From Kutzneria kofuensis (GTDB lineage: Bacteria > Actinomycetota > Actinomycetes > Mycobacteriales > Pseudonocardiaceae): a DNA stretch of 64,000 nt. The notes under the pieces are model-generated. The model made no database searches. It was not told where the DNA came from and saw only the letters and a program-made list of their open reading frames with translations. Made by a program: the position numbers and the translations under genes. Numbering within the stretch: position 1 is the stretch's first letter; each line of letters begins with the position of its first letter. The DNA lies in assembly GCF_014203355.1 (NCBI RefSeq), contig NZ_JACHIR010000001.1, positions 930,001 through 994,000 on the forward strand. The letters are read 5' to 3'. Below, piece by piece: positions 15,508-38,592 of the stretch.

Positions 15508-16365
15508 CTACAACAGAGTCAGCTGCTCCTGGTCGACGCGGTGGGCAGGGGCCACCGCGTCGACCGGCAGCGCCCCGGCGGGCCAGGTCGCGTCCTCCTC
15601 GGCGCCGGGAACGCCGGTGGCGGCGGCGTCCCTGGCGACCTTGGGCGCGAGGCCGTGCTTGCGCACCAACGGTTCCACCAGGCCCGCGAGCCGGCGCCGG
15701 TAGCGGCGGTCCGCGTAGCTCCCGTTGCCGTAGAGCTCGCGGTAGCCAGGGACCAATGACGGGTGTTCCCGTTTCAGCCACCCCGCAAACCATTCTCGCG
15801 CCCCCGGACGCAGGTGCAGCGCCAGCACGGTCACGCCGGTGGCGCCCGCCTCGGCGATCGCGCCGAGCAGATCGTCCAGCTGCTGCGCCGAATCGGTGAG
15901 GCCGGGCAGCACGGGGGCGATGAACACGCCGCACGGCAGGCCGGCATCGGCGAGCCGGCGGACCAGCTCCAGCCGGGCCTGCGGGCTGGGCGTGCCGGGC
16001 TCCAGGGTGTGGTGGATCTCCTTGTCCAGCAACGCGATCGACACGCCCAGCCCGACCGGCACCCGCTTGGCCGCCGCGGCCAGCAGTGGGATGTCGCGGG
16101 ACATCGTGGTGCCCTTGGTGAGGATGGAGAACGGGGTGCCGGTGTCGGCCAGCGCCTGGATGATGCCGGGCATCAGCCGGTAGCGCCCCTCGGCCCGCTG
16201 GTACGGGTCGGTGTTGGTGCCCATGGCGACGTGCTCACGGGTCCAGCGCGGGGAGGAGAGCCTGGCGCGCAACGCTTCCGCGGCATTGACCTTGACCACG
16301 ACCTGGCTGTCGAAGTCGTGCCCGGAGTCGAGGTCGAGATAGGTGTGGGTGTTGCGGGCGAAGCA
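15508..16365 (-). pseudogene. Rv2578c/SplB-like radical SAM protein, C-terminal part (gene split by element)
   Basis: 285 codons from the +1 Cys (TGC 16363-16365) encode CFARNTHTYLDLDSGHDFDS, GTNTDPYQRAEGRYRLMPGI, FSILTKGTTMSRD and VLPGLTDS, the conserved body of the Rv2578c family (COG1533, SplB-like). The N-terminal part with two of the three cluster cysteines lies 22.2 kb away at 38472-39659. The frame runs on into element DNA to a TTG at 16488, adding an artificial leader, but without the rest of CxxxCxxC no [4Fe-4S] cluster can form. It should be a dead fragment unless the element excises. Confidence 0.9.
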
Positions 16366-16394
16366 GTTGTGGTCAGCGCAAGTGCACACACCTG
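16364..16394. other. left attachment site
   Basis: Core CAGTTGTGG (16364-16372) adjoins chromosome on the left and element on the right. On the element side CACACCTG (16387-16394) is the inverted match of CAGGTGTG (38555-38562) near the right end, so the rebuilt attP has an 8-bp inverted pair around the core. Short identity and crossover inside a gene fit large serine integrases, which cut at a 2-bp core; which dinucleotide is used cannot be told from the product. Confidence 0.85.
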
Positions 16395-16464
16395 CACCCC
16401 GCCCACTGCCGAGGTCGCGGAGCACGCCCAGACGGGGCCACCGTGACGGGCGCGCGTCGCGTTT

Positions 16465-16535
16465 CGTGATGCTTTTCGTGACACTCAAGGGGTCGACATG
16501 TAGTCTGACCAGCAGATGTCACGAAATGAGTCACG
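16465..16535 (+). promoter_or_regulatory. promoter with two GTCACG-type operators
   Basis: A sigma70-like promoter TGACAC (16479-16484), 16 bp, TAGTCT (16501-16506) precedes the zinc-ribbon gene. It is flanked by two copies of GTCACGAAAnnnGTCACG: 16465-16482 (reverse orientation, ATCACG in the second half) over the -35, and 16518-16535 just before the ribosome-binding site. More copies lie at 16860-16877, 16920-16937, 29070-29087 and, imperfect, 29152-29169. This layout suggests autorepression by an element-encoded regulator (inference). Confidence 0.6.
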
Positions 16536-16550
16536 GTGAGGTGGTGGGTG

Positions 16551-17258
16551 ATGGGCACGCAATGCCTGGGCTGCGGAGAGGCGTTGAGCGCGGGCGCCAG
16601 TCGGGGACGTCCGGCCCGCTACCACGGACCGACATGCCGGCAGCGCGCCCGTCGCGCCCGACTGGCCGTGATTAACAGTGAGGTACTGGACGCCGTAGCG
16701 GTCGTCGAATCCACCATCAGTGAGGTGCGCCGTGCAGTTCTCGCCGGGGAGAGTCCCGGCGAGGCTGGCCACCAACTCGTGCGGGCTGCCGCCGAGCTCG
16801 CCGAGCGGCTTGGACTCTCCGGCGCGGGCTCGCCCGCCGATCCCAGCGCCGACCGCCCTGTCACGAAATCTGTCACGTTGCCGAGCGATCAGACCGAACC
16901 GTCCATGACCGCGCCGGCTGTCACGAAATCTGTCACGAAGCGGGTGCGGCCGCCACGCCGTCCGCACGTGCGATCAGCCGTGCCCGCGCTCCTTGATTTG
17001 GACACCGTCCGGCAGGAGCGTTCCACCGACCCCCTACGTCCGGGTTGGCGGGTCGTTGCTGGCGCAGCTGACGCCCCTGTGTTGGTGGGGTTCCTAGAGC
17101 CGACGTATTCGGCCACTGGACGGCGGTCCAGTCGCTGGGAGGCTCGAACAGATCGGCTCACGCTCGTGTCCGGCGGCCCCTGGCCCAACCGCGCTACGGC
17201 ACTGGCCAACCTTGTGGCCGTATACCAGCGAGTGGCAAAGCACATGTCGGACGGCTGA
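16551..17258 (+). CDS. hypothetical protein with N-terminal zinc ribbon
   Basis: A 235-aa protein. Residues 5-35 hold CLGCGEAL...GRPARYHGPTCRQRARRAR, a CxxC...C pattern like the small zinc ribbons of actinobacterial mobile-element proteins, followed by a helical segment rich in Ala and Glu and two VTKSVT stretches encoded by the GTCACG repeats. ATG 16551 (after GAGGTGG) is chosen over GTG 16536, which overlaps the operator. It is the first gene at the left end of the element. It could be a DNA-binding regulator or replication accessory; no function is assigned. Confidence 0.6.
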   Translation: MGTQCLGCGEALSAGASRGRPARYHGPTCRQRARRARLAVINSEVLDAVAVVESTISEVRRAVLAGESPGEAGHQLVRAAAELAERLGLSGAGSPADPSADRPVTKSVTLPSDQTEPSMTAPAVTKSVTKRVRPPRRPHVRSAVPALLDLDTVRQERSTDPLRPGWRVVAGAADAPVLVGFLEPTYSATGRRSSRWEARTDRLTLVSGGPWPNRATALANLVAVYQRVAKHMSDG

Positions 17259-17456
17259 GAGGGCGGTTCGGAGGTTACGTCCGTTTTTGGGTGACGCCTT
17301 GCGTTCGCTCATTACCAGCCCTGCGCAGCCGAGAACCGGGCAGCCTCACCACCAGTCAGAACATCACTCCATCATACGACGACGAACTACAAGAAACTCG
17401 CAAACCGCCTTCTCAGACGCACGCTCGTACCAGCTGTCAGGCATAGCCACAGTCGC

Positions 17457-17669
17457 TCACTTCGGTGGCCGGATTACTTCCAGAATCAAGCGGAACACTT
17501 TCTGGGCCGCTAGCCGGCGATCGCGTTTCCGTGACCATACGCCAGGGATGACCACGCCAAGAATGATAAAGGCTACTGCGGCAAGCGCGAGAACGACCAC
17601 GCGAGCATCAGCTGCCGCGGCGGCTCCAATCACGGCACAAATCGTGGTTCTCGGGGACAGCAATGGCAT
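17457..17669 (-). CDS. small membrane protein
   Basis: A 70-aa protein with one or two hydrophobic helices (about residues 6-20 and VVVLALAAVAFIILGVVIPG at 22-41), then the basic tail SRKRDRRLAAQKVFRL. ATG 17667-17669 has AGGAGA 8 nt upstream, which supports it over the longer frame. It is divergent from the HTH protein at 17883. No family recognised. Confidence 0.6.
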   Translation of the reverse strand: MPLLSPRTTICAVIGAAAAADARVVVLALAAVAFIILGVVIPGVWSRKRDRRLAAQKVFRLILEVIRPPK

Positions 17670-17882
17670 GGTCTCGTTCTCCTGAGGTACCCCCAAGCCG
17701 GCATGTACCGACTTGGGGAGTTCGACAACTGCTTCCAAGGAGACACGAAGCGACGGCCATCGTCGAACTTCTCGTACAACCCCGACGATGCCCAGTTGCC
17801 GGCCAGCTGGGTGCCGTATGCTTCGTGCAACCCCAGACGAGTCCAGACGAACCCAGACACCCCCGCACCAGGGAAGGTCGGC

Positions 17883-19007
17883 ATGAGTGAGCCTCTTCCG
17901 GCAGTGGCTGCATTGGCTGAGCAGCTGCGCGAGCTCAAGCTGCTGGCCGGCAATCCTTCGCTGACGCAGCTCGAGAAGCTCACGGTCGAACTGGGCGATC
18001 GCATCCCACGTGCCACGATCAGTGAGAAGCTGACCGGGCGGAGCAAGCCGGACCTCGACCAGCTAAACACCCTCGTGCAGGCATGCCGTGTGCACGCGGA
18101 GCGAGTCGGCCTGCCGCTGCCACCGGACCTCCGCGACAAGGCGAAGTGGCGCGAACGCTGGCTTGAGATGAGCCGGTCGCGGTCCGACCAACGGCGCCGA
18201 CAGGAACGTACTCCGCAAACGGATAACAACACTCCTGCCGATGACAGCAACGCTGCACCAAAGCAAGACGGCCACCTGGAGTCGATAGGCCAGTCTTTGT
18301 CCGAAGCCCTCGCCGCCCGCATCGCAGCGACGCGCGAGAGTGATCGCACACTCTTCCGCCGCGTTGCAACCAGTCCCACAAAAGGCTCGGTGTTCAGCGC
18401 ACTAGATCGCGCTGTCGAACTTGGCTTGATCCCGCAGAACGGTTGCCGCGTACGACTATCTCACACAAGCGCGTTCATAAGGTTTGCGCCCGACCCGGAG
18501 GAACGGGATCGCTGGAGCCCTATGGGTTTTAGCCTTGAACGATCTGATACCAAGCAGCTCTCGTTCGTCGAATGGGACGATGACGCGAGCGCGCTCGACT
18601 TCTTGCTCAAGATGACCGAAACCGTTCAGGCAATTGGGCTTTACCCTGGCGATTCCAGATTCACTCCCGATCAAGCTTTCTCCGATCTAGAATCGATCCT
18701 GCAACTTGCTTACCGCCAGTCCATCGCCGAAGACGGCGATGCGCAGGCACCGGCAATTCCGATCATCCAGATCTGCCCACCACAGTGGGCTATCACTACA
18801 AGTGGACTCATCAGCATTCGCAACGTTCAGGGATACTTCATCCCGAACGCACGTTTGGATGAACAAAATTGGACTGAACACCTACAATCCAAGCCTTGGG
18901 TTGATCAGGATAATTTCGATGAGGCTTTCGAGGATGCGAAGCACCTATACGAAGCCTGGCGCCGCGAATCACAACGGTACATCCCGAACGAAGAACCACC
19001 ATTCTAA
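17883..19007 (+). CDS. HTH-domain protein of unknown function
   Basis: A 374-aa protein. Residues ~5-70 look like the divergent XRE domain found in many Streptomyces proteins (VAALAEQLRELKLLAGNPSL ... PRATISEKLTGRSKPDLDQL). A polar, Gln/Asn-rich linker follows, then a ~230-aa domain with FIRFAPDPEERDRWSPMGF and WAITTSGLISIRNVQGYF, not recognised. Codon use is clearly less GC-rich than the flanking chromosome. ATG 17883 with AGGGAAGG upstream is preferred to an ATG 60 codons earlier. It ends in an inverted repeat and converges on the methyltransferase operon. Confidence 0.7.
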   Translation: MSEPLPAVAALAEQLRELKLLAGNPSLTQLEKLTVELGDRIPRATISEKLTGRSKPDLDQLNTLVQACRVHAERVGLPLPPDLRDKAKWRERWLEMSRSRSDQRRRQERTPQTDNNTPADDSNAAPKQDGHLESIGQSLSEALAARIAATRESDRTLFRRVATSPTKGSVFSALDRAVELGLIPQNGCRVRLSHTSAFIRFAPDPEERDRWSPMGFSLERSDTKQLSFVEWDDDASALDFLLKMTETVQAIGLYPGDSRFTPDQAFSDLESILQLAYRQSIAEDGDAQAPAIPIIQICPPQWAITTSGLISIRNVQGYFIPNARLDEQNWTEHLQSKPWVDQDNFDEAFEDAKHLYEAWRRESQRYIPNEEPPF

Positions 19008-19019
19008 CGCAATGAAAAC

Positions 19020-19103
19020 CCGTCGTGCCGTGTAGTGCGGTGAGTGCACGACGGTTGGTGGCGCGCGACGACACGCACACAACGACGGGGTGTGAACCAC
19101 GTC
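19020..19103. terminator. convergent terminator region
   Basis: CCGTCGTGC (19020-19028) pairs with GCACGACGG (19046-19054), and GGGGTGTG pairs with CACACCCC a few bases further on (about 19085-19120). The two hairpins sit between the convergent 3' ends of the HTH gene and the PIMT-like gene. No long U-tract is seen, as usual in this GC range. Confidence 0.5.
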
Positions 19104-19172
19104 CGGTCCACACCCCGGGCGGGCACAGCAGCCGACGCGCCTGTATGACGCTGCGTCGGTCGTGATCAATTG

Positions 19173-20304
19173 TCAGGGCACAGAGACGCTCTGCCGGTCC
19201 GGGGCCACCACCCACTCCCAGTCCTCAATCCCCGGCTTGTTGACGCTCTCCCACCAGCGGTAGGCGGCCTCTGCCTCGTCCCACAACCGGCGCGGCCCGA
19301 ACTGCCGCACCCCATACGTGCTGTGCGTCGTCGGCGCGATCCCCACGACTCCGAGACCGGGTCGGTCAGCCACGCCACCCCGTGATCCCGCTCCGCTGTG
19401 CGGGGCTCCACGTCGTACCGGCACGACGGGACCGCGACCGCGACCGCCCACCGCGACGCCTCCCCCAGCAGCATCGGGAACGGGCTGACCGATGTCGTCG
19501 ACTCCTGCCTGGCGGCATCCCATGCCAACTCCGCCCGGGGCAGGGACCGCACACGGTGGCTGCGCAGTTCCATGAACCCCACCCGCAGCGGCACGGCCCG
19601 TCCCCGCGCGATCCCGTGATCATCGACCGTGAACCGCACCAGCGGACCGGACGCGAGATCGCCCCGCATCGGCGCGAGCAGCACGCCCCCGGGCCGCGTG
19701 CTGTGCACCCACGAATAGGGCAGGTGTCCCAGGTGCACGCTCGCGGTCGCGATGACCCGATCAAATGCGCCGGTTACGGCCTTGGCTGCCGCGTCGTGAG
19801 TACGGACGTCAACAAACGACCCCGCCTGATCGAGGTTCCGGCATGCGAGGGTCGCGAGCCGTGCATCGATCTCCAGACTCGTCACCGCGCCGGACCGTCC
19901 CACCATTGTTGCGAGCAACGCGGCGTTGAATCCCGTGCCCGTGCCGATCTCCAGAACCGAGTGCCCCTGTCTGATGTCCAGCGCGGCCAGCATTCCGGCG
20001 ACGGCGGACGGCATCGACGCCGAACAGGTCGGGCGGGCCCGACATCGGGCCACACGGTGTGCCCGTCGTCGAACTGCGTCACGATGACCCGGTCCGAGTA
20101 CACGTAGCCGAGCCAGCGGCCCGGTTCGTTCACCCGGTCCACCGGCACGTACGGGCCGTCATCGTCGGGTTGGACCCACATCTTGTCGGGAATGAACTGC
20201 TCGCGCCGCACCTGCTCAAACGCCGAGACGCACGCGGCCGGCAACAAGCCGGCCGCGTGCAGACTCGCCGCCAAGGTGAGCGCAGTGTCACTACTGGCGG
20301 TCAT
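19173..20304 (-). pseudogene. PIMT-type (protein-isoaspartate O-methyltransferase-like) RiPP methyltransferase, two frameshifts
   Basis: Three consecutive frames encode one protein of about 377 aa. It starts at ATG 20304 (MTASSDTALTLAASLHAAGL ... VTQFDDGHTVWPDVG), continues from ~20035 in the next frame (RPTCSASMPSAVAGMLAALD, SAM loop VLEIGTGTGFNAALLA) and from ~19342 in the third (VRQFGPRRLWDEAEAAYRWW to the stop at 19173). Adding one C near 20034-20039 and one G at the 19341-19344 run restores it. The C-terminal extension beyond the PIMT core is typical of RiPP-associated PIMTs. These enzymes methylate Asp carboxylates to drive aspartimide formation. It lies 13 nt after the small peptide gene. 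Confidence 0.75.
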
Positions 20305-20317
20305 ATTTGGGTCAACC

Positions 20318-20494
20318 CTACTTCTTCTTCTCGAAATCCTTCGGGTCGATCGGCGTGCTCGGCCCGCCTCGCTTGTCATCCTCCGCCGAGTGCTTGTCGC
20401 CCATGCGGACCCGCGAGACCAACCGTTGCCACAGCACGTCGTCCAGCATCGACCGGTGCTGCAACGCCGGACGGTCGGACACCACAGTGGACAT
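20318..20494 (-). CDS. small peptide, candidate RiPP precursor
   Basis: A 58-aa peptide with an N-terminal leader-like half (RPALQHRSMLDDVLWQRLVS, residues 8-27), then a polar half with GDKHSAEDDKRGG and the tail STPIDPKDFEKKK. ATG 20492-20494 has AGGGAAGGA at a suitable distance. It precedes the PIMT-like methyltransferase by 13 nt and follows the 360-aa unknown protein. Asp residues near the C-terminus (IDP, KDF) could be aspartimide sites if the locus is imiditide-like. No Cys is present, so a lanthipeptide is excluded. Assignment as precursor rests on context and size. Confidence 0.65.
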   Translation of the reverse strand: MSTVVSDRPALQHRSMLDDVLWQRLVSRVRMGDKHSAEDDKRGGPSTPIDPKDFEKKK

Positions 20495-20613
20495 AGCGTG
20501 TTTCCTTCCCTGGTTGGGATTCTCGTACCCGCGCTGTGTCGGCGCATCGTCTTTCGCCGCGCTGACACAGGGTTGTCTGCGGGTTGCTCGTGGCCATACC
20601 GCGAGCGCCGTCT

Positions 20614-21696
20614 TCAACGCGTGAACGCCGCCGGTCTGGGTGAGACCGGGTGGGGCAGCGCCAGCGCGTGGTCGAACGCCTCCCACGCGTCTGTTGCGTC
20701 AATCCGCGTGAACGGTGGCGGCGCGGTCAAGGATGCCTGACGCAGGTTCACGGTGGCTGTGGGCTCGGGGGTGGTCTCCCAGACGGTGACGGTGACGCTG
20801 TCGTCGGTGTCGCGGGTCGCGGTGAACCGCTCGCCAGGAACGCCAGTCAGCGGGTGCACCAAGGCGGCGGCGACCTGGGCTGCGGTCCGCCCGCCAGCCC
20901 ACTGCACGCGTAGGCCGGTGGGTCCGTCCACGCGGATGGTCAGCCACACCGTGTCGCCGAGGACCCTGAGCCTGCGCAGCAGCGCGCTGGCCACAGGGAC
21001 GGGGCCGGGAACGCGGCCCGCCGCGATCGCGGTCTGTTCCGGTGTCGTCAGTGGGTCCTGGAAGGCCGGCTGCCAGTGGCGGCCGGTCAGTGTGCGGGCG
21101 AATGCGAGCATGGCGGCCCACTGGCGATAGCTCGTGCTGGCCAGCGAGACCGACACGTCCTCGCCGCTGTCGATGAGGTACAGCTCCACGTGCCGGCGGC
21201 ACAGGCGTACGCGTAGCCCGGGAAGGCCGTGCACGTGGTCGTCGACGATGCGGGGAAGCAGGGTGGTGATCATCGGCGTGGCGGTGGCGGGGCGTAGGTG
21301 CAGGACCGTGTGTGCGGTGTGGTGGGTGTCGTCGAGGACAGGGCGGACCATGAAGCACACCGGCATGGGCGCGACCACGGCGGTTGCCGGCCACTGGTAG
21401 GGGCCGATCTGGCCCAGCGCGAGCAGGATGCCGGCTTCCAGCTGCTGTTGGGCGGGGTCGGTGGTGTCGGCCAGCACGGTGCGGCGGATGTGCTCTTCCA
21501 CTGGTGGACCTGGGTTCTCGCCGAGGAGGCGGGTCTCGTAGCCGCTGTTGAGCGTCGTGAGGATGGTGGCGCGGTCTGGTGGGGTGAGTGCGGTCATGCC
21601 TGCGGTGACGGTGGCGCGCAGGGTGCTGTCGGTCTCTCCGGTGTAGGTCCGGCGGAGGTCGCCGACCCGGCGAGTCAAGGGGAGTCGGGTGGCCAT
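20614..21696 (-). CDS. hypothetical protein of the putative RiPP operon
   Basis: A 360-aa protein of unknown family. It is Thr/Val/Arg-rich and predicted soluble, with MVRPVLDDTHHTAHTVLHL, a LCRRHVELYLIDSGEDVSV strand and a C-terminal beta-rich half. ATG 21694-21696 is chosen (CGGAG 10 nt upstream) over an ATG eight codons earlier. It lies between the DUF574 methyltransferase (28 nt upstream) and the peptide gene (119 nt downstream). A role in recognition or transport of the peptide is possible but not shown. Confidence 0.65.
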   Translation of the reverse strand: MATRLPLTRRVGDLRRTYTGETDSTLRATVTAGMTALTPPDRATILTTLNSGYETRLLGENPGPPVEEHIRRTVLADTTDPAQQQLEAGILLALGQIGPYQWPATAVVAPMPVCFMVRPVLDDTHHTAHTVLHLRPATATPMITTLLPRIVDDHVHGLPGLRVRLCRRHVELYLIDSGEDVSVSLASTSYRQWAAMLAFARTLTGRHWQPAFQDPLTTPEQTAIAAGRVPGPVPVASALLRRLRVLGDTVWLTIRVDGPTGLRVQWAGGRTAAQVAAALVHPLTGVPGERFTATRDTDDSVTVTVWETTPEPTATVNLRQASLTAPPPFTRIDATDAWEAFDHALALPHPVSPRPAAFTR

Positions 21697-21724
21697 AACG
21701 TGAGTACTCCGGGCAAGCAAGGGG

Positions 21725-22567
21725 TCAGGGCAGGTAGGCGAGGGCGGCGAAGGCCAGCGACTCGGCGGGGTCGCCGACGTCGGCCCAGTGCTCGGGTCGC
21801 CACTGCGGGGTGTAGACGACGCCGGGGAACACCAGGTGTTCGAACGGGGCCAGCATGGTCGTGATCTCCGAACGCGTGCGCAGGTGTGCGGTGTTCTGGG
21901 TCTGCCGGTAGATGGCGATCACGTCGGCGAGCTGGTCGGGGTAGTCGGTGGCGGTGGCGTGGGAGAGCGCGAGGTAGCTGCCCGACGCCATCGCGTCGGA
22001 GTAGGCGCGCACGACGTCGGCGGGGCGGCGTTCGTCGGGGATGAAGTGCAGCACCGCGCACATCAGCACCATGATCGGCTGGGAGAAGTCGAGTAGCCGC
22101 GTGGTCTCCGGATGATGCAGCACGCTGTTCGGGCGGGTGATGTCTTCCTGGATGCAGGTGGCGTAGGGGTTGTCGCGGAGCAGGTCGAGGCTGTGGGCGA
22201 CGGCGACGGGTTCGTTGTCGACGTAGACCACGCGGGCGTCCGGCACGGCGCGGTGGGCGATCTCGTGGACGTTGCCGGCGGTGGGCAGGCCGGAGCCGAG
22301 GTCGAGGAACTGCCGCACCCCGTGCCCGATGCCGTAGTGGACGGCGCGGCGGAGGAAGCTGCGGTTGTGCCGGGCGAACGTGCGGGCTTCGGGCAGCACG
22401 CTCAAGACTGCCTCGGCCGTGGTTCGGTCGACCTCGAAGTTGTAGGAGCCGCCGAGGTAGTAGTCGTACATGCGGGCGGCGCTGGCGCGTTCTGTGTCCA
22501 CTTCGGATGGTCGCCAGTCCGCGTTGTGGCTCCACTGGGTCGGGTCGTGGCCCTCAGCCATGCCCAT
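21725..22567 (-). CDS. DUF574 / Methyltransf_19 SAM-dependent methyltransferase
   Basis: A 280-aa paralogue of the chromosomal 14662-15501 protein, with ASAARMYDYYLGGSYNFEVD, SAM loop FLDLGSGLPTAGNVHE and VVYVDNEPVAV. ATG 22565-22567 has GAGGAG 8 nt upstream. It is the third gene of a minus-strand operon of six that ends with the PIMT-like gene. Substrate unknown; the presence of two different methyltransferases with a small peptide suggests joint action (inference). Confidence 0.82.
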   Translation of the reverse strand: MGMAEGHDPTQWSHNADWRPSEVDTERASAARMYDYYLGGSYNFEVDRTTAEAVLSVLPEARTFARHNRSFLRRAVHYGIGHGVRQFLDLGSGLPTAGNVHEIAHRAVPDARVVYVDNEPVAVAHSLDLLRDNPYATCIQEDITRPNSVLHHPETTRLLDFSQPIMVLMCAVLHFIPDERRPADVVRAYSDAMASGSYLALSHATATDYPDQLADVIAIYRQTQNTAHLRTRSEITTMLAPFEHLVFPGVVYTPQWRPEHWADVGDPAESLAFAALAYLP

Positions 22568-22577
22568 GGCGTGCTCC

Positions 22578-22937
22578 TCATTCGGGGTGTCGCAACTCAG
22601 CGCGGCGAATCGGGACGCGAACCGGGGCCGCCGCTGTGCGGGGCGACGGCACCACCGGCCCTGACTTCACCGCCGCGCATACAGCCGGGTTCGGAACCGT
22701 GCTGCGCAAGGGTGCAAGCGTGATCTGGTGAGTCGGACCGACCTGCTGTCGCGCCCGGTGCGGCGCAGCACGGATGGTCCGAAGGTGACGGCGCATACGG
22801 GCGCGTGCCCGTCGTGTCAACAACAGGACGTCGCCAGGGCACAGATGATAGGTGCTCATGTAAGCCAACGTGAGCATTCCTAGAGACAGCAAGGCGAATC
22901 CTGCCACGATTGCCCAGCTGCACAGTTCAACGATCAT
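22578..22937 (-). CDS. small membrane protein
   Basis: 119 aa: one N-terminal hydrophobic helix (WAIVAGFALLSLGMLTLAYM, about residues 8-27), then an arginine-rich cytoplasmic tail (LTRRARARMRRHLR) and a Pro/Arg-rich end. ATG 22935-22937 has GGGAG upstream and overlaps the end of the preceding small gene by 11 nt; the stop is 10 nt before the DUF574 start. No family recognised. Confidence 0.55.
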   Translation of the reverse strand: MIVELCSWAIVAGFALLSLGMLTLAYMSTYHLCPGDVLLLTRRARARMRRHLRTIRAAPHRARQQVGPTHQITLAPLRSTVPNPAVCAAVKSGPVVPSPRTAAAPVRVPIRRAELRHPE

Positions 22938-23253
22938 CGTGGCTCCCACTTGCCAACCATCGGTAGACCGGGCCGAACACACGCCGGATGACGATGGCAA
23001 GCGCGAGTCGGACACCACCGAGCAGCACGACGGCGACGAGCGCGGACATGACCAGCGCTGCCACGGCGGCGTGAAGGCCGACGACCCACACGAGCGTGCT
23101 AGCCACGACGTACCCCTGTCGGTTGGTTGCGGTCGGCGCGCTGAGGCCGGGGTCACTCAGCGCGCCGGCCGCCATCGGGTGTCCGGCGGTGGGCGAGGTG
23201 GGCGCGGAGCCCCCACCGCCGGACGGCTCGGGTGACCGCCATAAGACGGCCAT
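22927..23253 (-). CDS. small membrane protein
   Basis: 108 aa: a Pro/Ser/Gly-rich N-terminus followed by two hydrophobic stretches (VVASTLVWVVGLHAAVAALV and LVAVVLLGGVRLALAIVI), ending in a short polar tail. First gene of the minus-strand operon down to 19173; a start further inside the frame is possible because ATG 23253 lacks a clear ribosome-binding site. Divergent from the HTH gene at 23361. Export, immunity or anchoring roles are only guesses. Confidence 0.5.
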   Translation of the reverse strand: MAVLWRSPEPSGGGGSAPTSPTAGHPMAAGALSDPGLSAPTATNRQGYVVASTLVWVVGLHAAVAALVMSALVAVVLLGGVRLALAIVIRRVFGPVYRWLASGSHDDR

Positions 23254-23360
23254 GGCAAACTGAAATCACCATGTCATCAGCGCGTCGTCAGCGGAACGAT
23301 CTACAGGCGACATGTGGGCGACATGGAACGACACCCGTAGCGAGGGCGGGAGGGCGAGCG

Positions 23361-24962: not shown

Positions 24963-25284
24963 TGACAACCGAGTCCGAAATGGCTTCCCATGAGTGGTCA
25001 ATCCCCGGCCCCCACGTGACGTAGTCGCCCTGCCTTTCCAGGATGGCGCTGCCCTCGGTGAGGTCGAGCCGAAAACAGCCTTCGACCAACAGGAGAAGTG
25101 TGGTGCGCTGGTCATCAGAGGTCCACTCAGGACGCTTGTCGCCGGCCGGGTGGACACCCCACTTGACTTCGACATCCTTTGTCGAACGGACACCTTTTGA
25201 CGGGTCGATGAAGTGGCCCAGGATCCAACCGCGGTTCTCTTGGCCGTCGTCGGCGGCATTTCCGTGGTGCCAGTTGGTGCCCAT
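24934..25284 (-). CDS. cupin-fold protein
   Basis: 116 aa with a small cupin core: TTLLLLVEGCFRLDL, ILERQGDYVTWGPGIDHSW and VVITVRW. The GHFIDPSKGVRSTKDVEVKW N-terminal half is strongly conserved in relatives that are often mis-annotated as signal peptidase I. ATG 25282-25284 overlaps the stop of paralogue B by one base (TAATG), so the two are coupled. Its 3' end overlaps that of paralogue A by 29 bp (convergent). Possible small-molecule sensing or isomerase role; unproven. Confidence 0.75.
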   Translation of the reverse strand: MGTNWHHGNAADDGQENRGWILGHFIDPSKGVRSTKDVEVKWGVHPAGDKRPEWTSDDQRTTLLLLVEGCFRLDLTEGSAILERQGDYVTWGPGIDHSWEAISDSVVITVRWPSLP

Positions 25285-27345: not shown

Positions 27346-27458
27346 CTATTCCTCCGCGCTCCGCCTCAGCGCCGAGATTAGCGGCTTCTCATCGCTCGAC
27401 CGCGGGACACGGCCGTTGTCATGCGGCGGTTAGCGAAACGCGCCTCAATATGCGCTGA

Positions 27459-27480
27459 TTTCAACAACATACTGTTGAAA
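27459..27480. promoter_or_regulatory. 8-bp inverted repeat operator between divergent units
   Basis: TTTCAACA (27459-27466) and TGTTGAAA (27473-27480) are perfect inverted arms with a 6-bp spacer. The site is 34 bp before the small HTH gene and 114 bp from the XRE start, in an AT-richer promoter region. The neighbouring XRE protein is the obvious candidate binder. Confidence 0.6.
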
Positions 27481-27513
27481 CCATCAGACTTTCTCTCTCG
27501 AAGGACATTTCTC

Positions 27514-29109: not shown

Positions 29110-29111
29110 AC
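28845..29111. repeat. three GTTCATGAAC palindromes
   Basis: The 10-bp perfect palindrome GTTCATGAAC occurs at 28845-28854, 28863-28872 and 29102-29111, each followed by AC. The first two are in the 3' part of the SpdB-like gene (encoding FMNT twice) 18 bp apart; the third covers the traB ATG. Binding there could block traB expression. Confidence 0.5.
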
Positions 29112-29169
29112 ACCTCCGGTGAGCGGGAAAACCCCGCCGTGACCAGCGCCGGTCACGAAACTGGGCACG
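29070..29169. promoter_or_regulatory. GTCACG-type operators around the traB start
   Basis: On the minus strand, 29070-29087 reads GTCACGAAATCCGTCACG, identical in design to the copies at 16518, 16860 and 16920. On the plus strand, 29152-29169 reads GTCACGAAACTGGGCACG (one half imperfect). They straddle the traB start at 29106. The same motif controls, by position, the promoter at the left end of the element, so both may answer to one regulator. Confidence 0.55.
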
Positions 29170-31511: not shown

Positions 31512-31594
31512 ACCGCCGGAGACGCGGGTACTCGCGACCACGTGCGGCTCTCTCCCTGGTTCCCCGCCGACGGGCAGAGGGGCGGTGATCCCCT

Positions 31595-32230
31595 TTGACC
31601 GACTACCCCGCCAATGATCCACAACCGAGGACAAGGCGGCATCCACGGAAGGGCAGTGACCATGATCGTCAACACCACGGGGCACCACGCGACGGACACA
31701 CAACGCCGGGCAACGGCGACCGCTGCCCGGATGGCACCCCGCCCGCCTCAGCGGACGGCAGTCGGGACAGCAGCGGGAAGCAGGCGCAGACCGACCGCAC
31801 CCGACCTGACCGACAGGGCACCCCCGTAGGACGACTGAAACGGGCCGTGGGCCGCTCAACACCGCCTGCGTCGGCCGATGCTGCATCCGACCGCGCTACG
31901 GGTACCACAGGACGCGGCAGGCACCGTGTCAGCCGACAGCGGCCGACATCCACGCCAGAAGAATTGGCACAGCAACAACTGACGACCGCGCTTCCCCAGT
32001 CACCACAGACCGCCGACCCGACGCAGTACCAGGCAAACAGCAATGATCAGGAAGCAGAAGGCGCGGGAATCAACCCGGTGTCGGACAAGTACGGAAATCG
32101 GGAGGTCCGCACCCTCCCACCCATGACCCCGGAGGAAATAGATTGGACTGACAGATTTCTAGCCAAATTGGAAGCTAGAGGATTCTTTGACGAAACCAAG
32201 TCCAGAGACATCCGAGCGATATTCGAGTAA
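31595..32230 (+). CDS. hypothetical hydrophilic protein downstream of traB
   Basis: 211 aa if read from TTG 31595; a later start is possible because the first ~110 residues are low-complexity (Arg, Thr, Pro, Asp). The C-terminal half is more convincing: NPVSDKYGNREVRTLPPMTP and EEIDWTDRFLAKLEARGFFD. It ends directly before a strong terminator, which supports it as last gene of the transfer operon. Function unknown. Confidence 0.45.
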   Translation: MTDYPANDPQPRTRRHPRKGSDHDRQHHGAPRDGHTTPGNGDRCPDGTPPASADGSRDSSGKQAQTDRTRPDRQGTPVGRLKRAVGRSTPPASADAASDRATGTTGRGRHRVSRQRPTSTPEELAQQQLTTALPQSPQTADPTQYQANSNDQEAEGAGINPVSDKYGNREVRTLPPMTPEEIDWTDRFLAKLEARGFFDETKSRDIRAIFE

Positions 32231-32233
32231 AGC

Positions 32234-32270
32234 AAACACCCCTTGACCATTCAGATCAGGGGGTGTTTTT
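32234..32270 (+). terminator. rho-independent terminator of the transfer operon
   Basis: AAACACCCCTTGA (32234-32246) pairs with TCAGGGGGTGTTT (32256-32268) with one G-U pair, loop of 9 nt, followed by a T run. It lies 4 nt after the stop of the last operon gene. Confidence 0.85.
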
Positions 32271-32289
32271 CTCGACTTCTACACTCTAA

Positions 32290-33715
32290 TACTACAGCCG
32301 CAGGCTGTGATGTTTGCGGTGTTGCCGCTGGTAGTGGCATCGCCGGGCGTGGGTCTGATGAAGTCGCCGCCAGTCCGACCATCGATCAGTGTGCGCTCGG
32401 GGGTGCGTCGGTCGCGTCAGGATGGCCCACAAACGTCTGATCTCGTTGCACGACAACGGGATCAAACACTCGTGGCCGGCTGTGACGCCCCCTTTGCGTC
32501 GCGGTCGCGTTCAGCGGACGCGGTCACGGCCAGGAACGCGGCGGCCAGCATCGACAGCGTGACATGTCGGTACCACGCCTGATACTTGCGGACCTGGTAG
32601 TGGTCCAAGCCGGTCTCGTTCTTGGCGAACTGGAAGGTTTCCTCGACACCCCAACGACTGCCGGCGACCCGGACAAGTTCTGCCAACGGCACGGGACGGC
32701 GGGTGTGGCAGATGTAGTACGCCAACTCGTCCGGCTTGCTGATCGACCGGCGCACCACGAGAAGGTGCTCGTCCGCGCCCGGGTCCAGCAGCAGCCAGTC
32801 ATACAGCCGGCGCCCCTTGCTGCCCTCACCGGCCGACAGGCGTTGCCAGCCCTTGCGCGGTGCGCTGCGAGCCAACGCATCCGCCCGCACAGCGCCTTTC
32901 GGGGTGGTGAAGCGCTGATCGCAGGAAACGGCCATGACGTAGTCGATGTCGTTGTCTTCTAGCCAGGTTCGCAGGCCGGGATTGTCGCCGTATGCCTCGT
33001 CCGCGGTGAACCAGTCGATGTCCCTTCCCGCCTCCAGCAGGCGAGCCAGCATGTGTTGGGCCAGCACGGGCTTGGTCGCGAACTCCACATCCTCGTCGAT
33101 CCCGGCCTCCGCGCAGCGCTCGCGGTCGTCGGTCCAGGACGCGGGCAGGTAGAGCTCGCGGTCGATCAACGCCCGCCCCCGGGCCGACACGTAGGTCAAG
33201 AACACGCCGAGTTGGCAGTTCTCGATCCGACCGGCGGTGCCGGAGTACTGCCGTTGGACACCGGCGGATTTGGTGCCTTTCTTGAGGAATCCGGTCTCGT
33301 CGGCGACCACGACCCCGGTGGGATCAGTGATCTGGTCCAGCACGTAGTCCCGCAGGTCGTCTCGGACCGCGTCGGCGTCCCAGCGGTAGAAGTTCAGCAG
33401 GCGCTGCATGCCGTCAGGGGCCAGGTCACCGGCCTGCTCGGCGATCGTCCAGGAGTTCTTGCGCTCGGCGCCCGACAGCAAGCCCAGCAGGTACATCCTG
33501 GCCCGGTGGCGTGAGTCTGCCTGTGCGAACCGGCCTGCGACCAGCGCGAACATGTCCTCGAACCCTGCCCGCCACCGCGCCAGGCGATCGTCCGCGTTCG
33601 TCTCCGGTAGGGCCGTGAGGTCCTGCTCCATGTCCGGCACACCCAAGTCGATCACGCATCGGCGGTCTCCGTGAACACGACACGCCGACAAGTATCACAC
33701 CGTGCGGCTGTAGTA
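32290..33715 (-). mobile_element. IS701-family insertion sequence with intact ends
   Basis: A 1426-bp element. The left end TACTACAGCCGCAGGCTGTG and the right end (reverse) TACTACAGCCGCACGGTGTG share 13 perfect bases and more beyond. CTAA flanks it directly at 32286-32289 and 33716-33719, a 4-bp target duplication that fits the YTAR preference of the IS701 family. It landed in the gap after the transfer-operon terminator and disrupts no visible gene. Confidence 0.92.
32462..33631 (-). CDS. IS701-family transposase
   Basis: About 389 aa (409 from an upstream TTG). DDE-type: the first Asp is in VVADETGFLKKGTKSAGVQRQ-like text (VVADETGFLKKG), the second in DWFTADEAYGD and the Glu in SRWGVEETFQFAKNETGLDHY. 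The N-terminal DRLARWRAGFEDMFALVAGRF segment is standard for IS701. Full length and complete ends suggest it may still be active. The ATG at 33629-33631 matches the usual MEQDLTALPE start. Confidence 0.88.
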   Translation of the reverse strand: MEQDLTALPETNADDRLARWRAGFEDMFALVAGRFAQADSRHRARMYLLGLLSGAERKNSWTIAEQAGDLAPDGMQRLLNFYRWDADAVRDDLRDYVLDQITDPTGVVVADETGFLKKGTKSAGVQRQYSGTAGRIENCQLGVFLTYVSARGRALIDRELYLPASWTDDRERCAEAGIDEDVEFATKPVLAQHMLARLLEAGRDIDWFTADEAYGDNPGLRTWLEDNDIDYVMAVSCDQRFTTPKGAVRADALARSAPRKGWQRLSAGEGSKGRRLYDWLLLDPGADEHLLVVRRSISKPDELAYYICHTRRPVPLAELVRVAGSRWGVEETFQFAKNETGLDHYQVRKYQAWYRHVTLSMLAAAFLAVTASAERDRDAKGASQPATSV

Positions 33716-33780
33716 CTAATCGCTCAATGCAGACCGCTCCGACAGTGTCGAACTGTAGACATAATTGACGCCGTCAATAT

Positions 33781-34508
33781 TCATGCGCTTCCCGGTTTCT
33801 CACCTGAGGCCATCGCCTTCAACTGCTCCGCCAGGAACGGTGTCACAAACGTCTTGACCACATCTTTTTCAGTGGGACACTGATCCAAGTTGGGGCAAAC
33901 TAGGGGTATCAGCACACGCAACGCGTTCGTCAAGTGGGCAATGGGGGTGTGGCCTAGCGCGATCTTCAATCCGAGTCCGGCACCAGCGCCCAGCACGTTC
34001 GCCATGCACCTCGGCATGCCCAACGCTATCAGACCGTCTCGTGTCGGCTTCTGAATTTGCGCAGCGTAGGTTCCGGGATCCACGCCTTTAGCAAGACCAT
34101 TGAGACGTAGGCACAGCCAGTGGCCACGCCGTCGACCACGATGCCAGATCGGCACGTGATCAAGCAGACGCCCAGCCAATCCGGAATAAAACCCATCTCG
34201 ATTGAATATATAGGTCAACACCTCGTTATTGACGTCCAAGCGGCTCGACGCGAGCGATCGCTTTGCCTGTTCCCGACTTACTTGGCGCTGCGACAGGCGT
34301 CCATGGGGCTGCGGCGATCCACTCGAACGTTGTGGCGATACCGCCATAAACGATTTCCCGACAGGTTGCGGCTGACGATGTCGTTTGACTCGGGTTGTTT
34401 GAAGGGTCGGCACGGGCGGTACATAAATCGTTGACCGACGAGTCCTACCGCACTCCCGACCGGCCCGAGAACCGTACTTATGACGCCCGCCGCAGCTTGA
34501 GCAGTCAT
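33781..34508 (-). pseudogene. hypothetical element protein, one frameshift
   Basis: ATG 34506-34508 has GAGGAATCAG directly upstream and opens MTAQAAAGVISTVLGPVG, a hydrophobic N-terminus, but the frame stops at 34278. From about 34315 the next frame carries on (PHGRLSQRQVSREQAKRSLA ... WHRGRRRGHWLCLRLNGLA ... QIQKPTRDGLIALGMP) to 33781. One extra G on the plus strand at the GGGG run 34314-34317 joins them into one protein of about 242 aa. Without it the second part could start at ATG 34347 with only a weak ribosome-binding site. No family recognised. Confidence 0.55.
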
Positions 34509-35119
34509 ACTGATTCCTCGGCGTTGCACGCCTTCGAGCTGCCACCATGACCAGATGTCTTACTGCATCAGAGCATCCTCAACTGTGTCATACGACACAT
34601 TCACCCGTTTGATCTTGACCGCTCCGAAGCTGACTGCGGCATCAGACGCTTCCACAGTGGCCCAACTGCGGTGCATCGACAGGTGCACACGGGCTTGACG
34701 CGTGCTCACAGGCGCTGGTCGGCAAAGTTTCGGCACCATAGGCGCAGCACGCGTCAGTCTCCAGCGACGACGTGTCTCACTGGCCAGCTTCGTTCTTCAC
34801 CTCACTTGGGGACGAGTCAACCCACACCTGACAGGTTCGAGGTCTGGTTTGCCGTTGTCTCGCAACGACTTCCACCACACTTCACAGCCTGCAACGTTCG
34901 CAAACGAGAACGTCCACTACAGACGGTCAACGACGGTCGTCTGCCATCGTTTGATGGGGGAAAAGTATGGAGATGATCTTGACTACCCCTAAGGTGTCCA
35001 CCAGCTCGACAAGCAAGCGACGATAACAGTACAGCATCTATATGACATGCGCACGTAACACCTGGTCTACTAAATCGATTTTCCACGCAACGACGGACTC
35101 CCCACACAAGGAACAGTCG
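34509..35119. other. 611-bp stretch without a supported gene
   Basis: The region is relatively AT-rich. Several open frames of about 100 codons exist on both strands, but none has a ribosome-binding site with plausible composition, and they overlap one another. It must contain the promoters of the divergent units starting at 34508 (minus) and 35120 (plus). No clear tRNA, hairpin terminator or repeat array is seen. Confidence 0.5.
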
Positions 35120-35539
35120 ATGGATCTTACAATTCTCTTAGCCGATGCCGCTCAAGTGAGCCACGACCAGAAGGTCAGCGCACTCGGGCTCGGCTGGACA
35201 GCTACGCAAGCACCACTTCCACCTCACGCTGTCGTAGTCTTTTTCGAAATCGACTGGAACGAGACAAACCAAAGAGTTCACACCAAGATCATCCTCGTCA
35301 ATGCGGACGGACATCCCGTTAGACAGCAGACCGAAACAGGCGAGCAAGAGATATTCGCCGAGGGCGAAATGGAATTTGGCCGACCGCCAGGACTACCAGC
35401 CGGTACACCTATTACATTTCCAATCACGTTTGGCATCGCGCCAGGAATCCAACTACCCTCCGGACGCTATGAATGGCGAGCATCCGTCGACGGCCACGAG
35501 AAGACACACTGGCGTCGAGCATTTCTCGTAATGTCGTAG
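35120..35539 (+). CDS. DUF6941-like protein
   Basis: 139 aa, beta-rich: MDLTILLADAAQVSHDQKVS, HAVVVFFEIDWNETNQRVHT, PAGTPITFPITFGIAPGIQL and SGRYEWRASVDG. This pattern fits the DUF6941 group of small soluble proteins found in bacterial accessory regions. ATG 35120 follows AAGGAAC. It starts a plus-strand group of three genes with lower GC than the chromosome. Function unknown. Confidence 0.6.
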   Translation: MDLTILLADAAQVSHDQKVSALGLGWTATQAPLPPHAVVVFFEIDWNETNQRVHTKIILVNADGHPVRQQTETGEQEIFAEGEMEFGRPPGLPAGTPITFPITFGIAPGIQLPSGRYEWRASVDGHEKTHWRRAFLVMS

Positions 35540-35570
35540 TTTGCCCACGCTGTGAACACAAGGGGGATCT

Positions 35571-36041
35571 GTGGCCGACTTCGTTACACCGCTCCTAGCT
35601 GCCCTAGGTACGATCATCGCAGCACTTGGGGGACCAACAGTCGCTGGCGCACTACAGAACCGGCGCGACGGAAGGCTGCGAGCATCGTTTACCAGCAACA
35701 AAGAGTTACTCAAGGAGCTCGACGAAAAACCTTCACTACTGAACGAATCACAGAAACAAGATCTTCAGGCGCTAGTGAACGAGCAAGCCGCCGCTCTCGT
35801 TTCTCGCGAGCGAGCACGACTTAACAAGCGTCGCGAATGGTCCAACTTAGGTGTAGTTATATTTCTACTTTGCACTTTCGGCTGGATCCCGGTCTGGATG
35901 TGGTTTATCCAAACATGGTGGTCATGGATCATTTTCGGCCTGGTTGGAATATTCCTTGCGGCCTGCACGATAACAGGGACAATTCAAACCTTTCGACCAT
36001 CAGAATCCTCCAGAAAACGGAAGTCAACAGTGAACGAGTAG
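35571..36041 (+). CDS. membrane protein with coiled-coil-like middle
   Basis: 156 aa: an N-terminal hydrophobic helix (TPLLAALGTIIAALGGPTVA), a charged helical stretch (LKELDEKPSLLNESQKQDLQ ... VNEQAAALVSRERARLNK) and two C-terminal membrane helices (VVIFLLCTFGWIPVWMWFI and WIIFGLVGIFLAACTITG). GTG 35571 is preceded by AGGGGGATC. Layout with two membrane anchors around a helical rod is seen in some accessory/defence membrane proteins; no family assigned. Confidence 0.65.
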   Translation: MADFVTPLLAALGTIIAALGGPTVAGALQNRRDGRLRASFTSNKELLKELDEKPSLLNESQKQDLQALVNEQAAALVSRERARLNKRREWSNLGVVIFLLCTFGWIPVWMWFIQTWWSWIIFGLVGIFLAACTITGTIQTFRPSESSRKRKSTVNE

Positions 36042-36244
36042 TGGGTGCTCAGGCATTACTACACCGCAAGGGAGGGGCTTCGCGCCATCCCGGAGACCGG
36101 CCGCGCGGCGAGCGCTGCGTTGACTCTGTTCGGCGGCGCAGGCCGCCGGCCTGCTGCTTCTTCGATCGCGACCTACAGGGTAACGCAACAGGTCGATTCA
36201 GCGACCTACGTTCTGCTACTGCTCCGACGAATAAGGATGACCAT

Positions 36245-36754
36245 ATGAGGAACATCTCTTCAGCAGTCGCAGTCAGTGTGCTCGCGCTATCACTTTCAGC
36301 ATGTGCCACGACGTCGCAAATGGATGCCCATCGGACGGCCACGATACATGGCGTGGTTGCTCTAACTGACAGTCATGGCGGCGCGTGGCTCACTCAGAAC
36401 AGCGTAACGGATGGAGCATCCTGCGCAGTGACACAGGACTTAATACCCGGATTTAACGGCGGAACCCGAGCATTCCCTGGTGATGCGCAAGTGGTGGTAA
36501 AGAATCAATCCGACACTACTTTGGGAGCAGTCGCCCTAGACTCACCTAAATCCGGAATCGTACGCCACGCGCCGCAGTCAAACACAAGATATTACTGTGA
36601 GTTCTCCTGGCAAATCATAGTTCCAGCAGCCAACCTGTATTCGATTGAATTTCCTGGGGCAACAACACAGCGATTCGAAGCGAACTCTGTTCCGCCCGTG
36701 GTTAGGCTTAGCATAGGAAATGGAGCTGGGTTCACACCTCAAGGTGTTGGTTAG
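36245..36754 (+). CDS. putative lipoprotein
   Basis: 169 aa with a type II signal peptide ending in the lipobox LSAC (SVLALSLSACATT), so it should be anchored outside the membrane. The mature part is beta-rich with two Cys (DGASCAV and RYYCEFSW) that could form a disulfide. ATG 36245 has AAGGA upstream. Third gene of the 35.1-36.8 kb cargo group; the 204-bp gap before it contains a GC-rich stretch unlike its neighbours. Could serve in exclusion, signalling or surface defence (unknown). Confidence 0.7.
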   Translation: MRNISSAVAVSVLALSLSACATTSQMDAHRTATIHGVVALTDSHGGAWLTQNSVTDGASCAVTQDLIPGFNGGTRAFPGDAQVVVKNQSDTTLGAVALDSPKSGIVRHAPQSNTRYYCEFSWQIIVPAANLYSIEFPGATTQRFEANSVPPVVRLSIGNGAGFTPQGVG

Positions 36755-37030
36755 CGTTGGCTGTTCGTCAGACACCCACGGTCCCCGCCGCCGAGTTGTC
36801 GCCGCCGAGGACTGACCGTTATTCCTCACCGCGGCTTGCGGGGTGGCCGGAGGCCGAGGCCCCGACGAGCCGCCGAGCGGCCCCCTCAAGGGGGCCGCCT
36901 TGATCCAGTGAAGAAGGTGTGAATACAGCAAGCGTCCGCGCGATTGTCGTGGTTCGACCAATGCTTGACGCGGCCAGACGGAGCAGCAGCGCCGTTAAGC
37001 GCGAAATTCAAGGTTTGTACGGTCTACGCA
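36755..37030. terminator. intergenic region with a perfect GC-rich hairpin
   Basis: GCGGCCCCCT (36877-36886) and AGGGGGCCGC (36889-36898) form a perfect stem with a 2-nt gap, placed between the convergent lipoprotein and integrase genes; it is likely a bidirectional terminator. The surrounding 276 bp hold no supported gene. Confidence 0.55.
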
Positions 37031-38521
37031 TTATTCGGGAAAGACTAGCTGATCAGGGTGGAATCTCACGCCCTGTCCGACTGCTTTGACACCAACGACT
37101 GGAAAGAACCTACGAATAGTGTCTCGCTGCTTGCCGATGTCCTTAGACTTGAGGAAGGACTCAGCATCGTCTAGAGGCAACGGTTGAGGCTTAGCTTTTT
37201 GCTCTTTCCTTAGTGTATCAATCTTCTTCTGAGCATCCTGCCGAATATCCGCCAGAGTAGCTATGTCAATACGGTCATCCTTGAAAGCCTGCACCGCATC
37301 GTCAATCTTTCCCTGTTGCCGAGCTATCTCACTTCCGGTTGTGTCTACCACCTTCTCAACCACAACGGGTAGACGCTTGATTGCCTTGTAGGTCAACTGG
37401 ATGAAGAACTTCTCTAGCGCGTCGGCATTCCTGGAGACACTTCCACAACCGCCGCGCGGTTTTTGGCATCGATAGACGTAATGACGCTTCTTAGTTCCGT
37501 CCTTGTGCTTCTTGCCGTACTTGTGGCCGTACGCCATCTTCGTGGCACATTCAGCGCATACAAGGATGCCCGTCAGCAGATGCTTGGGCGCTTTCTCCGT
37601 TGCCCACGACTTGTTTTTCGACAGAATCTCTACTACCTCATAGTGCTCATCTTCCGTAAAGATCCTTGGCCAACTCCCCCTGGCGACAACTTCACCCTTG
37701 GGAATAACCCTTCCCTCAACCTCGATGTCTCGTGTAAATACGCGCAATGCGGCATAGGCAGGGTTGCGCAACAACCTACTCAAGTCGGTAACAAAGTAAG
37801 GCTTGCCATTTGGCTTCACGACGCCTTGTTCACGCATTTCATTACAGATGCTCGACAGCGACCGTCCGGCAACAACCTTCTTGCGCGCACGCCGCAACAT
37901 CTTAGCCTCTTCCCAGTCGATAGCTTCATAGCCAAGCGTGTAGCCAATCCGCTTTACTCGACTAGCAGGAGCCTTACCCTGAATGGCTCGAAGTTCCTTC
38001 CGGGCTCGTTGCCTATGGCCGGTGATCTTAGACTCGGAGCGGCTCAACACAGCGATGATGCCGGTAGTTACATCGTCTTTGATCTCCCGGCCGGACGAAT
38101 CGAAAGTGCGAACCTTCGACAGGTCAGTAATTACGTGGTACTCCTCAAGAACCGAGGACTCCCTACGACTGAGCCTATCCTGATCCCGCACGATAACGAA
38201 GCGTCCAGACAACTCGCCAGACATGATGTCTGACATGAGCTTGTTGTAGCCCGGACGCTCAATATCCTTGGAACCCGACTTATCGTCGTCGTAATAGACG
38301 CCATCGGTTCCCACCGAGGCATCAAGACGCAGTCCCGAACTTCTCGCGTATTGCACGCATCGGAGGACCTGGGTAGCGAAGTCGTCACCGATGGACTTGC
38401 GGAAGTAGAACACGCAAGGTTGGCGCGACATGTCGCCATCGATCAGGTAGGCCCTGTCCTCCGACAGGGCCTCAGGGAAGATGTCCTCTGTCCTCATCGG
38501 ACGAGCGTTTGTCCTGGTCAT
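37031..38521 (-). CDS. large serine recombinase (integrase)
   Basis: 496 aa. The catalytic domain has VFYFRKS (nucleophile Ser near 43) and the arginine-rich FVIVRDQDRLSRRESS. The recombinase domain spans RVKRIGYTLGYEAID to RLLRNPAYAAL, then the zinc ribbon CAECATKM...YRCQKPRGGCGS and the coiled-coil region near QQGKIDDAVQAFKDD. ATG 38519-38521 with GGGAG 7 nt upstream is chosen over an ATG four codons earlier. It lies 63 bp from the right core, the usual attP-proximal position. Codon use is markedly AT-richer than the host. Confidence 0.93.
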   Translation of the reverse strand: MTRTNARPMRTEDIFPEALSEDRAYLIDGDMSRQPCVFYFRKSIGDDFATQVLRCVQYARSSGLRLDASVGTDGVYYDDDKSGSKDIERPGYNKLMSDIMSGELSGRFVIVRDQDRLSRRESSVLEEYHVITDLSKVRTFDSSGREIKDDVTTGIIAVLSRSESKITGHRQRARKELRAIQGKAPASRVKRIGYTLGYEAIDWEEAKMLRRARKKVVAGRSLSSICNEMREQGVVKPNGKPYFVTDLSRLLRNPAYAALRVFTRDIEVEGRVIPKGEVVARGSWPRIFTEDEHYEVVEILSKNKSWATEKAPKHLLTGILVCAECATKMAYGHKYGKKHKDGTKKRHYVYRCQKPRGGCGSVSRNADALEKFFIQLTYKAIKRLPVVVEKVVDTTGSEIARQQGKIDDAVQAFKDDRIDIATLADIRQDAQKKIDTLRKEQKAKPQPLPLDDAESFLKSKDIGKQRDTIRRFFPVVGVKAVGQGVRFHPDQLVFPE

Positions 38522-38554
38522 CTCGACTCCCATCCCACCGACACGGTACCGCGC

Positions 38555-38592
38555 CAGGTGTGCGTGTCGAGAGTGAACACGAACAGTTGTGG
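38555..38592. other. right attachment site
   Basis: Core CAGTTGTGG (38584-38592) with element on the left and chromosome on the right. CAGGTGTG (38555-38562) is the right arm of the inverted pair around the rebuilt attP. On the coding (minus) strand the core covers the codons for His, Asn and Cys at the intein C-terminal junction. Confidence 0.85.

Follow-up and report, generated by a model that had tools for sequence, protein, structure and literature searches.

A 64,000-bp stretch of the 10.4-Mb genome of the soil actinobacterium Kutzneria kofuensis (positions 930001-994000 of its contig) was analysed; this whole stretch is called the window, and coordinates without further label are positions within it. 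The window carries an integrated element of 22,220 bp (16366..38585, TG to TG), delimited by joining its flanks and by comparing occupied with empty sites. The element interrupts a radical S-adenosylmethionine (SAM) gene of the Rv2578c family. Judged from the sequence, this serine-integrase element was very probably inserted at an intein-extein splice junction by recombination between its own attachment site, attP, and a chromosomal attB that spans the junction. The integrase (500 amino acids; 37031..38533, minus strand) matches Pfam Resolvase, Recombinase and Zn_ribbon_recom as well as phrog_95 integrase, with PF00239, PF07508 and PF13408 all over their cut-offs. It is the sole match to itself in its own genome at E <= 0.001.

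The evidence for insertion starts from the two ends of the element. As stated in the initial annotation of this DNA, a core, CAGTTGTGG, is present at both ends, and the coordinates given there are correct. The plus strand of the window has exactly two copies of it, one at 16364-16372 and one at 38584-38592; the complement of the core occurs nowhere in the 64 kb. A chance repeat was considered: 705 of 20,000 random pairs of 60-bp stretches have a common 9-mer, so such sharing is not rare and the core repeat was not counted as evidence alone. The match rises above chance because the flanks, without the element and with one copy of the core, join into one gene. The joined flanks give a minus-strand frame without a stop, whose 649 codons comprise N-extein, intein and C-extein. 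The 649-residue protein scores 827 bits against NCBIfam NF038136, above the cut-off of 700, and the uninterrupted gene of a genome of the same genus (G057) scores 828 bits. The two halves of the interrupted gene, unjoined, score 466 and 352 bits, both below 700. The unbroken frame and the score on NF038136 bear out the earlier claim that joining the flanks restores an intact intein end followed by the C-extein. NF038136 is a curated NCBI family named "intein-containing Rv2578c family radical SAM protein". The host gene and its intein fit this family once the flanks are joined, but the K. kofuensis gene is interrupted at the C-terminal splice junction, and the model is silent on integration.

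All three parts of the host gene lie on the minus strand. The N-extein (39447..39677), assigned by reading frame and NF038136, has 77 codons and ends in ...NPYRGCTHACVY. It is followed by a complete intein of 287 amino acids (38586..39446; CLDGQT...VVSHN), assigned by reading frame. The C-extein (15508..16365), CFARNTH... to the stop at 15508, matches Pfam Radical_SAM and the C-terminal part of NF038136. Since the intein itself is unbroken, the term "split inteins" used in the initial annotation is a misfit. Cys1, the C-terminal His-Asn and the +1 Cys were read directly in occupied and empty sites. By these residues the intein belongs to class 1; its nearest solved structure is the gp41-1 intein. 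It scores 31.2 against Pfam Intein_splicing, below the cut-off of 35.8, and its match to the homing endonuclease domain LAGLIDADG_3 (E 0.0039, 17.9 bits) is below the cut-off of 22.5. In CTHACVYC, the radical SAM cluster motif, the +1 residue provides the third cysteine. The 64-kb window yielded no tRNA.

On the minus strand, the core reads CCACAACTG both in attR, on the intein side (38584..38592), and in attL, on the C-extein side (16364..16372). Also on that strand, the attP arm on the integrase side (38544..38583) has the inverted-repeat end ...CACACCT and encodes the tail CSCSLSTRTPG... after the intein, and the arm at the other end (16366..16405) has the inverted-repeat end CAGGTGTGTG.... 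We propose, from the sequence, that the crossover dinucleotide is TG, located at 38585-38584 in attR and at 16365-16364 in attL. TG makes up bases one and two of the +1 Cys codon, which would place the crossover on the splice junction. The attP sites of three elements, namely the one described here (genome G000, K. kofuensis) and those of G109 and G148, were reconstructed and scored for inverted symmetry, and the scores at even centres within 4 bases were summed over the three sites (G numbers label the compared genomes and L numbers the loci). The summed symmetry was best at TG, with 41 of 78 matches, and the next centre reached 35. Shuffled attP arms gave a mean of 20.0 with a standard deviation of 3.8, and none of 5,000 shuffles reached 41. 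The best centre thus coincides with the position at which the initial annotation had placed the insertion, "exactly" at the splice junction. The base before TG gives a second line of evidence. G109 has T here at the intein junction and C at the opposite one; the base is T in the empty site of G057 and C in the attP of G000 and G148, as expected with strand exchange at TG.

Several points weigh against this placement. The three attP sites are related, so their symmetry does not amount to three independent tests. In G148, TG shares its score with centre +1, and in G000 and G148 a tie at 12 is reached by an odd centre lying 10-12 bases off. Judged from the G109 sequence alone, the crossover could lie in ACAA, in the His-Asn codons just inside the intein. 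ACAA was at first favoured on account of the G109 differences; the symmetry and the empty site of G057 made TG more likely. At the C-extein junction (16366-16400 in the window), the attP arm read in frame gives CxCAxxNCFAR in all three elements, and the CxCAxxNC peptide upstream of CFAR is most simply explained as an in-frame translation of this conserved arm.

When 297 genomes of the family were searched with the integrase, 9 of them gave matches at E <= 1e-40. In three of these (G000, G109 and G148) the integrase lies directly beside an intein end, and the C-extein-side junction was also found in all three. The integrase of G109, on a K. buriramensis contig, is 80% identical, and its element, about 13.85 kb long, occupies the same junction. 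That of G148, which belongs to another genus, is about 69% identical (68-73% by segment) and occupies the same intein-extein junction, in an intein 46-49% identical to that of G000. The survey of other genomes that the initial annotation had suggested therefore yielded, in G109 and G148, members of this integrase group at that junction. The two junctions of G148 are on different contigs and its integrase gene has broken frames; as the element spans two contigs, this case rests on two separately read junctions. The broken-frame integrase beside the intein (G148:C240; L005, L037) is a decaying copy or an assembly error. An order-wide search of 397 genomes returned G000 and three distant relatives that were known beforehand. 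Integrase relatives in phage records (325 records) were all under 60% identity, and none of 4 pattern matches in viral contigs was confirmed as a relative.

Empty sites were found in both genera. The same gene and intein are uninterrupted in G057, G142 and G126, of the same genus as K. kofuensis, with identities of 92, 90 and 90% over query residues 1-649, 1-649 and 2-649, respectively, as the initial annotation had predicted for relatives that lack the element. The seven genomes of this genus thus divide into two occupied (G000, G109), three empty with the intein, and two (G019, G087) that have the gene without the intein. Five other genomes of the genus of G148 have gene and intein as one uninterrupted match, and no integrase match was found in them at E <= 1e-60. 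Two further genomes, G223 and G239, were considered as junction insertions and rejected, as the gene is frameshifted and truncated instead and the intein junction is intact. In these genomes (L100 in G223, L101 in G239) the intein-containing radical SAM genes look truncated or frameshifted inside the C-extein. The intein-containing gene may often be dispensable.

The recurrence of the junction raises the question of which half of the site the integrase needs. One reading, to which we give somewhat less than even odds, is that it needs the intein half. The intein would then be the niche of the element, and its loss would remove that niche; the intein would still splice, onto a decoy tail, with the host enzyme switched off. 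The competing explanation, which we consider rather unlikely, is that the site is set by the radical SAM (C-extein) half, that the intein half is tolerated and that inteinless alleles are also entered at the same codon. The direct evidence is positional: an attB of normal size has to draw one of its halves from the intein. All three insertions are in intein alleles, which argues against a site set by the C-extein half, but this is weak evidence, since chance alone would give that outcome in about 1 of 4 trials and the analysis set out from G000; of the 297 family genomes, 160 have the intein (E <= 1e-20) and 260 have the gene (E <= 1e-25). Codon usage at the junction points the same way. The string CACAAYTG is present in 33 of 33 distinct intein junctions and in 0 of 31 distinct inteinless sites, a count in which codon choice alone is informative, because the search pattern required His, Asn and Cys. 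The 33 distinct sequences come from 35 loci at which the intein gene is uninterrupted and the junction invariably reads HNCFAR; the occupied sites (loci L028, L029, L035, L070) had their C-extein junctions left out. Half-site symmetry averages 8.6 of 22 in sites that have the intein (5.8 shuffled) and 6.5 in those that lack it (5.9 shuffled), and is thus also higher in the former. In favour of the C-extein half, TG is also present in the inteinless alleles (31 distinct sites, found with a pattern that included the Cys codon), next to a similar C-extein half. Moreover, the phage Samy, described below, shows that an inteinless gene can be used by another integrase.

Relatives of the integrase at quite different genes also favour a site set by the C-extein half, and they weigh against strict dependence of the integrase group on intein DNA. 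In Solihabitans fulvus, an integrase relative (79%) lies beside a cytochrome P450 gene (PF00067) and not beside an intein. In G205, a relative (63%) splits a carboxymuconolactone decarboxylase (CMD) gene (PF02627), of which both pieces were found, and this genome has an uninterrupted intein-containing radical SAM gene elsewhere. For 5 more distant integrase relatives (38-49%), neither gene nor intein was matched in the flanks fetched. A tree of a 220-residue integrase segment places the relatives at the P450 and CMD genes, with modest support, amid those at the intein, so the target seems to have changed within this group of integrases. The earlier claim that one selfish element targets another is accordingly upheld in that insertion at the intein junction recurs, and qualified as regards the need for intein DNA. 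On the Solihabitans fulvus contig (L013), the integrase occupies 1567-3039 and the neighbouring P450 gene appears to lack its start. In G205:C1 (about 3706532 to 3716300; L038, L003), the CMD-family gene is split between RASQINGCGF and CVDMHT. By eye, the P450 and CMD sites seemed to resemble an inverted C-extein half-site; this resemblance was not used.

In the mechanism that we propose, the element, equipped with a large serine integrase and an FtsK-type protein, would enter by attP x attB recombination. Within the Rv2578c-family radical SAM gene, attB would be the DNA across the intein's C-terminal splice junction. The last ~20-25 bp of the intein (...VVSHN) would form one half-site and the initial ~20-25 bp of the C-extein (CFARNTH) its partner, lengths that are typical of such half-sites. 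Because the half-sites encode motifs that are hard to change, His-Asn-Cys and the radical SAM cluster cysteine, they would form a stable landing site. Insertion would cut the radical SAM gene in two, and the intein would stay complete, with its +1 Cys supplied by attP. After insertion, the intein-side frame reads HN-CSCSLSTRTPG... and stops 37 residues past the intein. In all three occupied sites the intein is complete and HNC is followed by SCSL (HNCSCSL). Continued splicing is expected from known intein chemistry, and the truncated intein product should still be able to splice, onto a short tail. The spliced N-terminal product would have all three cluster cysteines, the third from attP, but would lack the whole C-extein, where the radical SAM domain match lies; the C-terminal fragment would be without the first two cluster cysteines. 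Neither product should therefore have the activity of the enzyme. Excision would bring back the intact gene, free of any scar, and we infer that the element is capable of active excision and conjugative transfer.

Elements that interrupt a gene and are excised in a regulated manner have precedents in the skin and fdxN elements. It is improbable that the K. kofuensis element is of this kind, leaving the chromosome during some stage of the life cycle so that the radical SAM gene is restored. In favour of such a role, the flanks still join without a scar, and among NCBIfam models the integrase is matched best by XisF of fdxN (NF041201), at 71 bits against a cut-off of 375. That match, however, is a superfamily resemblance, relatives have empty sites, and the gene content suggests a transfer element. 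The K. kofuensis integrase is like XisF in being a serine recombinase whose excision would restore the interrupted gene, and the element differs from fdxN in that its target is an intein junction and regulated excision is hypothetical here.

The insertion in G148 is clearly a separate acquisition, and that in G109 is likely to be one. Beyond the integrase, a single conserved protein and genes of WhiB- and FtsK-like type, the elements of G000 and G109 have little in common. DNA identity between G000 and G109 is 77.7% in the integrase region, 88.4% in the intein and 90.4% in the C-extein, and the host allele nearest to G000 by pairwise identity is the empty allele of G142 (91.2% in the intein, 91.6% in the C-extein). 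As a point against repeated insertion, host-gene trees do not settle the order of G000, G109, G057 and G142, so the argument for separate acquisition within the genus rests on cargo and pairwise identity. A single old insertion inherited by descent, or an assembly artefact, in place of repeated targeting is very improbable: two of the three cases are in one genus and the trees leave a sister relationship of G000 and G109 unsettled, but the third case is in another genus with an intein only 46-49% identical, empty sites exist in both genera, and the G000 and G109 elements differ in cargo and length.

The mechanism is apparently that of an ordinary serine integrase, and the target is apparently new. 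An attB at an intein junction was not reported among the literature matches listed, which covered few subscription papers, or in passages of PMC8270828, PMC11078007 and PMC9262239. The Streptomyces phage Samy enters and inactivates an Rv2578c-family radical SAM gene, as established by experiment in six strains according to the main text of PMC12924846, in which the word "intein" has 0 occurrences. The initial annotation's suggestion of a novel integration site therefore apparently holds for the intein junction and not for the host gene itself, which that text identifies as a target of Samy. The core of Samy was first guessed to lie near the Cys codon; the best candidate instead lies 139 bp (~46 codons) upstream of that codon, where a site one mismatch from the core was found in 7 of 7 loci, all from one genus group, probably Streptomyces. 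Judged by this inferred placement, the Samy site differs from the intein-junction site. Both systems combine a large serine integrase with the same Rv2578c radical SAM gene family, but the gene entered by Samy is inteinless and the site is apparently another one, and the integrases align at 22% over 227 columns. Samy is a phage; the K. kofuensis element carries an FtsK-like protein, and none of its scanned proteins was recognised as a phage product.

Actinomycete integrative and conjugative elements usually have a tyrosine integrase and an attB in a tRNA gene. The K. kofuensis element resembles them in size, in chromosomal integration and in an FtsK-type protein like those of plasmid records, and differs from them in its serine integrase, its protein-coding attB and the absence of a recognised replication gene from the open reading frames (ORFs) scanned. 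For want of a recognised replication gene we kept it out of that family; a gene of an unknown type is possible.

Mobile elements usually pick constant sites, such as tRNA genes and essential coding motifs. Here the constant sequence would be made jointly by an intein and a host enzyme, so that one mobile element would provide the docking site of another. This makes a testable case of dependency between selfish elements. The predicted range for the spread of such elements would be the intein-carrying alleles, present in 160 of the 297 family genomes, and the integrase comes with a defined candidate attP/attB pair for actinomycete genetics. If dependence on the intein half is true, the element would be a layered parasite that settles only where another selfish element has invaded and that spares its parasite host.

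The remaining genes suggest that the element is a probable conjugative element. A candidate conjugation pump, an FtsK/SpoIIIE-type translocase of 838 amino acids (28995..31511, plus strand), matches Pfam FtsK_SpoIIIE (PF01580) at 47 bits against a cut-off of 24. Its best matches in the plasmid collection, at 35-39%, lie in records from Pseudonocardia and Streptomyces, where they are annotated FtsK, and in a part of a Nonomuraea record that bears no annotation; it has no match in the phage collection. Also on the plus strand are a conserved protein without an assigned function (28375..29109), 76% identical over 220 columns to its counterpart in the K. buriramensis element, and a WhiB-like regulator (27564..28049; Pfam Whib). 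Ten element proteins compared with PHROGs matched integrase-type, FtsK-like and unknown families, with a weak terminase match of the FtsK-like ATPase. Among the ORFs scanned, which are part of those of the element, neither a replication initiator or other replication gene nor a phage structural gene was recognised.

Three further genes lie on the minus strand. A DDE transposase (32462..33691; Pfam DDE_5 and DDE_Tnp_1) belongs to an insertion sequence within the element, and two methyltransferases are cargo, one SAM-dependent (21725..22567; Pfam Methyltransf_19) and one PCMT-like (19166..20053; Pfam PCMT). In the PADLOC scan, 9 other element proteins gave no defence match, and the PCMT-like methyltransferase also matches the defence model mads_2 at 48 bits, over part of the model. 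Just outside the element, an ORF at 14662-15501 resembles by eye the SAM-dependent methyltransferase at 21725-22567.

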